Shown piece by piece: positions 19,088 to 20,666 of a DNA stretch of 33,437 nucleotides. A program made the position numbers and the translations under genes. The notes beneath the pieces were generated by a model. It saw nothing but the letters and a program-made list of their open reading frames with translations. It searched no databases and had not been told where the DNA came from. The number at the start of each line of letters is the position of its first letter. Within the stretch, counting starts at the first letter, position 1. Source of the stretch: Fidelibacterota bacterium (lineage in GTDB: Bacteria; Fidelibacterota; Fidelibacteria; Fidelibacterales; Fidelibacteraceae); the NCBI GenBank assembly GCA_021734505.1, contig JAIPIT010000014.1:1-33437 (forward strand), in the 5' to 3' direction.

Positions 19088-19113
19088 TAAAAGTAATCCA
19101 TTAAGGAGATATT

Positions 19114-19386
19114 ATGAACACATCAGATTTAATCCAAAGCGTGTCTGAAAAGTCTGAAATTTCTAAAACAGAAAGTAAGGACTTATACGAAGCACTTACT
19201 TCTATTATGGAATCTTATTTTACAAGTGAAACGGGAGTTGTTATTCCACAATTCGGTTCTTTTAACATTAAAGAAAAAAACAGCCGGCAGTCATTCAATC
19301 CCGCAACAAAGGAATATGTATTACTGCCAAAAAAACTGCTTTTGGCCTTTGTTCCGGCTTCTCAGTTAAAAAAAGACCTTAGATAA
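19114..19386 (+). CDS. HU/IHF-family DNA-binding protein
   Basis: 90 residues, the normal HU length. The N-terminal helices (TSDLIQSVSEKSEISKTESKDLYEALTSIMESY) form the dimer body, followed by QFGSFNIKEKNSRQSFNPATKEYVLLPKKLLLAFVPASQLKKDL. The proline of the DNA-intercalating arm is present in FNP, but the usual RNPxTG is altered to SFNPATKE, so it is a divergent member. It should act as a small nucleoid protein that bends DNA as a dimer. AAGGAG stands 5 bases before the ATG. The gene is 11 bp upstream of a second HU domain fused to a membrane-anchored LysM protein, which raises the possibility that the two HU domains pair. Confidence 0.9.
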   Translation: MNTSDLIQSVSEKSEISKTESKDLYEALTSIMESYFTSETGVVIPQFGSFNIKEKNSRQSFNPATKEYVLLPKKLLLAFVPASQLKKDLR

Positions 19387-19397
19387 GGATCAGATCT

Positions 19398-20585
19398 ATG
19401 TCGATTAAAATCACATTCCAACAGCTTGTTGATGAATTCTCCATTTCAACCGGTCGTACAAAAGCCTTTACTAAAGAATTCATCAAAGACGTTTTCACTA
19501 CAATTCAGGAAGGCCTTAGACGAGATGAAAATGTCAATATTAAAGGCTTGGGTATTTTCAAACTCCAGGAAGTTGCAGAAAGAGAAACAGTCAATCCAAA
19601 GACCGGAAAAGTCTCATTAATTGAGGCTCATAAGAAAGTTGTTTTCAAACCCGAGAAAGCTTTGCGGGAAAAAGTAAACGCTAAATATGCCAAATTGAAA
19701 ACTAAAAATATTAAAATGAAGGAAGCTCCCAAACCCGCTCCTGTCATTACTCCTATTGTGGAAAAACCGGTTAAAAAAGAGCAACTTACTTTTGGTGAAC
19801 CTTTACCCAAAGCCCCTGTAAAAAAAACAACTCCTCCCCCTCCTCCTCCGCCACCCAAAAACGATAATAAAAAGATCATGCCGACTTTTATTATTGAGGA
19901 AAAAAAGAAAAAATCCGCATGGCGATGGTTGTTGCCGCTTTTACTTCTTATTTTGATCTTTGTAGTTATTTTTATAGTACCAACAAAATTTGATTCAATG
20001 GAAGATCTTGCTTTTTGGAGAAATTGGAATTGGGGTAAAGACTCGATCCCCGATCATCCAACGGTTATAGAGACTACTGAAGTGGAAACTGAAATTATGC
20101 CTATAAATCAGGCTGAGAACATTTTTGTGCAAGCACCTTTGCCTAATAAGGAATCTGTGCCCGTAGAGAAGCTAGAGCCTATTCTTGAAAAAAAAGAACA
20201 AGACTCAGCTCCCGTTAAACAGGAGGAACCTGTAGAGCCGACTCAATCTGTTGAAATGGAAGATGAGCAAACATTGATCCATATAGTTAAACCGGGTAAT
20301 ACGCTTTGGGGACTTTCTAAACATTACTATTCACGCACATCACTCTGGCCAAATATATACCGGAAAAATGTTGAGATATTAAGAACACCTGATCTATTGC
20401 ATATTGGCAGAGAACTTCTTATTCCCCAGTTGCAGGGTGACTCCTTTGAATTAACAAAATCCGATTCTGCGCGTATAGCGCAAGGTTATTACCTTGCCTA
20501 TCGTGCCTATAAAAAATACGATGCAGAAAAAGCGGAAGGGTACTTGAAAGTAGCTAAGAAATTCAGTACGACGCTTGATAAATAA
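19398..20585 (+). CDS. HU domain - transmembrane - LysM fusion protein
   Basis: 395 residues with three distinct parts. Residues 1-95 are a full HU/IHF domain (GLGIFKLQEVAERE, NPKTGKVSLIEAHKK, VFKPEKALREKVN) with the arm proline kept. Residues 96-168 are a basic, proline-rich linker including eight consecutive prolines (146-153). A KKKKS stop precedes one membrane span (about 176-196, LLPLLLLILIFVVIFIV). By the positive-inside rule the HU domain is cytoplasmic and the rest periplasmic: an acidic, proline-rich spacer (about 200-290), a LysM domain (about 292-345, HIVKPGNTLWGLSKHYYSR...HIGRELLIPQ) that should bind peptidoglycan, and a short helical tail resembling a TPR unit. This layout could tether DNA to the cell wall. 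Bacteroidota have HU-like domains fused to SPOR; this is the LysM counterpart. Confidence 0.88.
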   Translation: MSIKITFQQLVDEFSISTGRTKAFTKEFIKDVFTTIQEGLRRDENVNIKGLGIFKLQEVAERETVNPKTGKVSLIEAHKKVVFKPEKALREKVNAKYAKLKTKNIKMKEAPKPAPVITPIVEKPVKKEQLTFGEPLPKAPVKKTTPPPPPPPPKNDNKKIMPTFIIEEKKKKSAWRWLLPLLLLILIFVVIFIVPTKFDSMEDLAFWRNWNWGKDSIPDHPTVIETTEVETEIMPINQAENIFVQAPLPNKESVPVEKLEPILEKKEQDSAPVKQEEPVEPTQSVEMEDEQTLIHIVKPGNTLWGLSKHYYSRTSLWPNIYRKNVEILRTPDLLHIGRELLIPQLQGDSFELTKSDSARIAQGYYLAYRAYKKYDAEKAEGYLKVAKKFSTTLDK

Positions 20586-20610: not shown

Positions 20611-20666
20611 GGGTTGGACACCTGTCCATCGTAGCTTTAGCGCTGATGGATGTCCAACCCTTTTTT
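20611..20666 (+). terminator. Terminator-like hairpin after HU-LysM, with CGTAGCTTTAGCG loop
   Basis: GGGTTGGACA (20611-20620) pairs with TGTCCAACCC (20651-20660); an inner stem TCCATC/GATGGA (20625-20630 with 20645-20650) encloses the loop holding CGTAGCTTTAGCG; six T follow. A 4-base bulge separates the two stems. The loop word recurs at 23537-23549 on the other strand. Confidence 0.75.

Follow-up and report, generated by a model that had tools for sequence, protein, structure and literature searches.

A membrane-spanning HU–LysM protein and its small HU partner in Neomarinimicrobiota and Bacteroidota, a candidate strap between nucleoid and cell wall

To our knowledge, it is not yet settled how bacteria hold their chromosome in relation to the envelope, and demonstrations of a direct link between DNA and wall are scarce. 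Two adjacent genes of a Fidelibacterota bacterium, found within the stretch of DNA analysed here (the window, 33,437 nucleotides of contig JAIPIT010000014.1), raise the question whether such a link could be built from HU-type proteins, one soluble and the other carried on the inner membrane. The genes lie on the same strand, 11 bp apart, and the strong hairpin with a T run after the second stop codon indicates that they are read as one operon (Table 1).

Table 1. Features of the small HU and HU–TM–LysM locus, in window coordinates (TM, membrane span)
Feature	Position	Strand	Basis
Ribosome-binding site AAGGAG of the small HU gene	19103..19108	+	Read from the sequence
Small stand-alone HU, 90 aa, proposed partner subunit	19114..19386	+	PF00216, AlphaFold2; arm-tip Pro kept
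HU–TM–LysM fusion protein, 395 aa	19398..20585	+	Pfam domains, AlphaFold2
Fusion, HU domain (residues 8-94), GLGIF core, NPKTG arm tip	19419..19679	+	PF00216, Foldseek
Fusion, cytoplasmic proline-rich linker, net charge +14, EEKKKKSAWRW at its end	19680..19928	+	Mostly disordered (AlphaFold2)
Fusion, single membrane span (residues 178-196)	19929..19985	+	Hydropathy 3.1; model helix 175-197
Fusion, periplasmic linker, mostly disordered	19986..20270	+	pLDDT mostly <50
Fusion, LysM domain (residues 295-343)	20280..20426	+	PF01476; pLDDT >90
Fusion, C-terminal helical hairpin (residues 354-393)	20457..20576	+	AlphaFold2, alignment of members
Hairpin and T run just 3' of the stop, likely terminator of the two-gene operon	20611..20666	+	-30.5 kcal/mol, z -4.7

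The domain build that the initial annotation had read from the letters, namely HU, linker, single membrane span and LysM, is borne out by Pfam, hydropathy, AlphaFold2 and Foldseek. Both window proteins score well within the HU family PF00216 (73 and 77 bits, cut-off 22.4); the match covers residues 1-89 of the small HU (E 2.2e-20) and the N-terminal domain of the fusion (E 1.8e-21). AlphaFold2 returns the HU fold for the small protein alone (mean pLDDT 86) and for the fusion (pLDDT 84-91 in most blocks of the HU part, about 90 or more in the LysM domain and the C-terminal hairpin), and the top PDB matches of the fusion model in Foldseek are HU/IHF chains (best E 1.5e-6). Against the NCBIfam equivalogs of IHF alpha and beta, which have a cut-off of 111 bits, the top scores of the window proteins are 47.5 and 51.5, and a Pfam scan of the fusion gave no match to SPOR or to PF18174/PF18175, the HU-CCDC81 families. 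The LysM domain lies just above its gathering score (PF01476, 23.0 bits against 20.9, E 7.5e-5).

The span is the only strongly hydrophobic segment of the fusion, the runner-up having a mean hydropathy of 0.5, and it is preceded by the KKKK noted at the outset. The net charge is +3 over the 15 residues before the span and -1 after it, which favours an N-in/C-out topology and supports the placement of HU inside and LysM outside that had been proposed. Penicillin-binding proteins are encoded in the window genome, so that peptidoglycan is made and available for the LysM domain to meet. Peptidoglycan binding is not universal among LysM domains, and the only PDB LysM matched by sequence is that of the potassium-binding protein Kbp.

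A profile search with the fusion across 245 genomes of the phylum Neomarinimicrobiota recovered the complete protein in 17, belonging to four of the 31 families (two of the three genera of f1, together with f16, f23 and f24), and contig-edge fragments in two further genomes, G020 and G178. One scan of genome contigs matched just a same-genus relative, and no fusion was found on viral contigs. Absence of the fusion from all relatives, which the initial annotation had named as grounds for giving up the idea, is not what is observed; restriction to the window's genus is likewise rejected, and chance or misassembly as the origin of the fusion is ruled out by the orthologues of the same architecture, with the same partner, in many genomes. 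Most Neomarinimicrobiota genomes are without the pair, which is therefore not essential to the phylum.

The small HU is tightly tied to the fusion in its occurrence. Proteins of its type score above 100 bits in the same 17 genomes and in G178, and at most 80 bits in any other of the 245; this gap is partly a matter of construction, since the profile was built mostly from these loci (the copies of G178 and G188 lie outside it), whereas the absence of a strong match from fusion-free genomes is not. The co-occurrence gives a Fisher p of 3e-25 for genomes that are not independent of one another. In every instance that the contigs allow to be read, the small HU is directly upstream of the fusion in the same orientation, and the two genes either overlap or are separated by 11 bp. 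In G178 the contig runs out within the first part of the fusion, and in G020 the fusion lies broken at a contig edge on a contig that stops short of the small-HU position; in G188, the 3' end of an extended small HU precedes the fusion, its start being on another contig. The flanking genes vary between families (rlmN/sua5 or recA in f1, a symporter and other genes in f24, gyrB-gyrA-like genes in f16), which makes selection a likelier reason than inherited synteny for the pair staying together, and inherited synteny as the cause was rejected on this ground. Beside rlmN in genus g2 of the same family, f1, and in f2, the pair is absent.

Several loci depart from this plan. In part of f24 (L021:776-1501, L025:767-1504) the small HU carries a proline- and acid-rich tail of ~150 residues, which brings this partner subunit to 241-245 aa. 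In G020 (L014 / L141:5791-6992) the fusion at the contig edge is in two frames between TM and LysM, through a sequencing error or as a pseudogene, and in G019 the gene immediately after the fusion encodes another TM–LysM protein, this one lacking HU (L012:1910-2470). In family f29 (L018, L020, L022, L024, L026, L030, L032) the same TM–LysM–C-terminal module is joined to a DUF1508/YegP-like domain (PF07411, E 7e-8 in L018), not to HU; a partner small HU is absent there and a gene nearby resembles a HydF-type GTPase. The window genome also has two near-identical ordinary HU genes (L001 and L002, in G000 C75 and C9) with the arm tip RNISTG, without the usual proline.

The HU–TM–LysM design extends beyond the window's lineage to gut Bacteroidales. 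A protein search of plasmid records matched four of them, from Bacteroides, Phocaeicola, Parabacteroides and Prevotella; these records, carrying ftsY and rimO, are probably mislabelled pieces of chromosome. In each, the ftsY-rimO flank is followed by a small HU and then by an HU–TM protein of 363-458 aa, and the annotated records describe the products just as 'HU family DNA-binding protein'. The C-terminal domain is weaker here: that of the B. finegoldii fusion scores 20.1 bits for LysM, just below the cut-off of 20.9, the P. distasonis protein has a LysM motif visible by eye and below Pfam detection, and in Prevotella, where divergence is greater, the assessment was purely by eye. The helical hairpin at the C-terminus, present in Neomarinimicrobiota members, is absent from the Bacteroidales members read. 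Conserved pairing with the small HU, the check that had been called for, is positive across two phyla, Neomarinimicrobiota and Bacteroidota.

The bearing of these loci on whether there was one pair or two inventions comes from trees of 50-53 HU domains with ~100 columns, read without a fixed root. The small HUs of Neomarinimicrobiota and Bacteroidales form one clade (support 100/99) and the fusion HUs of both phyla form another (92/91; 86/89 with extra outgroups; 100/100 once three long-branch rows are omitted), the latter clade being likely rather than certain. The small-HU clade might have been no more than the usual HU of these phyla; this was rejected by adding ordinary HUs from Neomarinimicrobiota, Prevotella, E. 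coli, Priestia and Athalassotoga, and ordinary HUs fall outside both clades. With each of the two subunit types grouping across the phyla, the plain reading is that the pair predates the split of the two phyla or was transferred as a unit. The architecture, the conserved pairing and the distinct lineages of the subunits are common to both phyla.

The co-occurrence and the trees together strengthen the case that the small HU and the fusion HU form a heterodimer, which we regard as quite probable. HU homodimers are common, and each of the two subunits folds as HU alone in AlphaFold2, so the fusion might act as a homodimer with the small HU as a mere neighbour; strict co-occurrence and adjacency despite changing flanks, and two subunit clades common to two phyla, make this very improbable.

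Whether such a heterodimer would hold DNA can be judged in part from the arm-tip proline, which in HU drives between (intercalates) DNA bases. Both window subunits have it, and it is present in at least one subunit of all 20 pairs (20/20), never being lost in both members; the fusions of the four Bacteroidales and of L028 lack it, as do the small HUs of L021 and L025. The pattern, which amounts to about three independent losses and carries no statistical test, agrees with a heterodimer for which a single arm may be enough. The basic proline-rich linker of the initial annotation is found in the window protein, and its basic charge is lineage-specific: the net charge of the linker runs from +14 in the window through about -5 to +3 in f24 to -21 to -36 in Bacteroidales, so that a basic linker is not a defining part of the design. 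As the Bacteroidales fusion HU is near neutral and has lost the arm-tip proline, DNA contact there would rest on the small subunit.

The same residues could be read differently, with the HU domains serving as a protein-protein dimerisation module that no longer holds DNA and the whole as an envelope scaffold recruiting proteins at its cytoplasmic end, a role of the kind that has been proposed for the eukaryotic CCDC81. The losses of the arm-tip proline, in the fusion or in the small subunit, agree with this, as do the near-neutral HU and acidic linkers of Bacteroidales and the f29 proteins, where DUF1508 in place of HU implies that the LysM part can work without HU. We consider it rather unlikely, given that at least one arm tip is intact in each pair and that the window protein keeps its NPKTG arm, its GLGIF core, an HU charge of +5 and the +14 linker.

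Proteins of comparable design are known. The HU-CCDC81–TM–SPOR proteins of Bacteroidota were reportedly predicted by Burroughs et al. in 2017 to have a role in chromosome partition. Like the fusion, these have an HU-superfamily domain inside, one span and a peptidoglycan-binding domain outside, but their HU is from another Pfam family and SPOR stands where the fusion has LysM. One of them, of 363 aa (NC_022111.1 107378-108451, L145), shares its Prevotella record with the HU–LysM pair, so that two separate designs are present in one cell there; PF18174 is absent from the window genome and from the five Neomarinimicrobiota genomes tested. IHF and HU heterodimers resemble the pair in having two distinct HU-fold subunits and the arm-tip proline; they are, however, soluble, their genes are unlinked in E. 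coli, and neither window protein comes near the equivalog cut-offs for IHF and HU. A literature search, with many subscription papers outside its reach, returned no description of an HU–LysM protein. The novel part is the LysM variant and its constant small-HU partner, rather than the broader notion of linking an HU to the wall.

The polar landmarks HubP and FimV share with the fusion a periplasmic LysM, one span and a cytoplasmic part by which the chromosome is eventually held, via ParA1; unlike the fusion, they have no HU, and they reach DNA only indirectly, by way of acidic cytosolic modules and ParA1 (PMC8789113, PMC12918733). It is the LysM that places HubP at the pole, being both required and enough for its targeting there, and the origin of chromosome 1 is held by ParA1, the partner of HubP (PMC8789113). 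Mycobacterial Rv3852 likewise combines a nucleoid-associated protein with a membrane helix, C-terminal in this case, and interacts with the polar scaffold Wag31; it is annotated as H-NS type, not HU (PMC8233713), and is not known to have a peptidoglycan-binding domain. By analogy with these proteins, a membrane-bound HU could keep DNA at particular membrane sites, tuning expression or marking poles or septum, while the LysM would do no more than direct the protein to those wall sites. No polarity partner stands in a conserved neighbourhood and the flanks change between families, and we hold this possibility to be unlikely.

In the mechanism that we propose instead, the operon would encode a dedicated, IHF-like HU heterodimer of the small soluble HU and the membrane-borne HU. 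The fusion subunit would be a bitopic inner-membrane protein with its periplasmic LysM holding peptidoglycan, and the heterodimer would bend and grip DNA without strong sequence specificity, as HU does. Such a complex would act as a strap that runs from the nucleoid through the inner membrane to the wall, and might influence nucleoid position, local compaction or segregation alongside ParABS. Replacement of ParABS by the pair is unsupported, ParB_N occurring both with and without it. We judge the chances of the full strap from DNA to wall to be evenly balanced, with DNA binding, dimerisation, wall binding and cellular role deduced from domains, models and comparisons. That it is an ancient, dedicated machine of two subunits, which either predates Neomarinimicrobiota and Bacteroidota or is common to them and which ties the nucleoid to peptidoglycan through an IHF-like heterodimer, is a tentative proposal, somewhat short of probable.

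What these genes offer is a single protein that joins a DNA-binding fold inside the cell to a fold of the wall-binding type outside, together with a fixed partner. The presence of the pair in genetically tractable Bacteroidales makes the strap idea testable by deletion and imaging.
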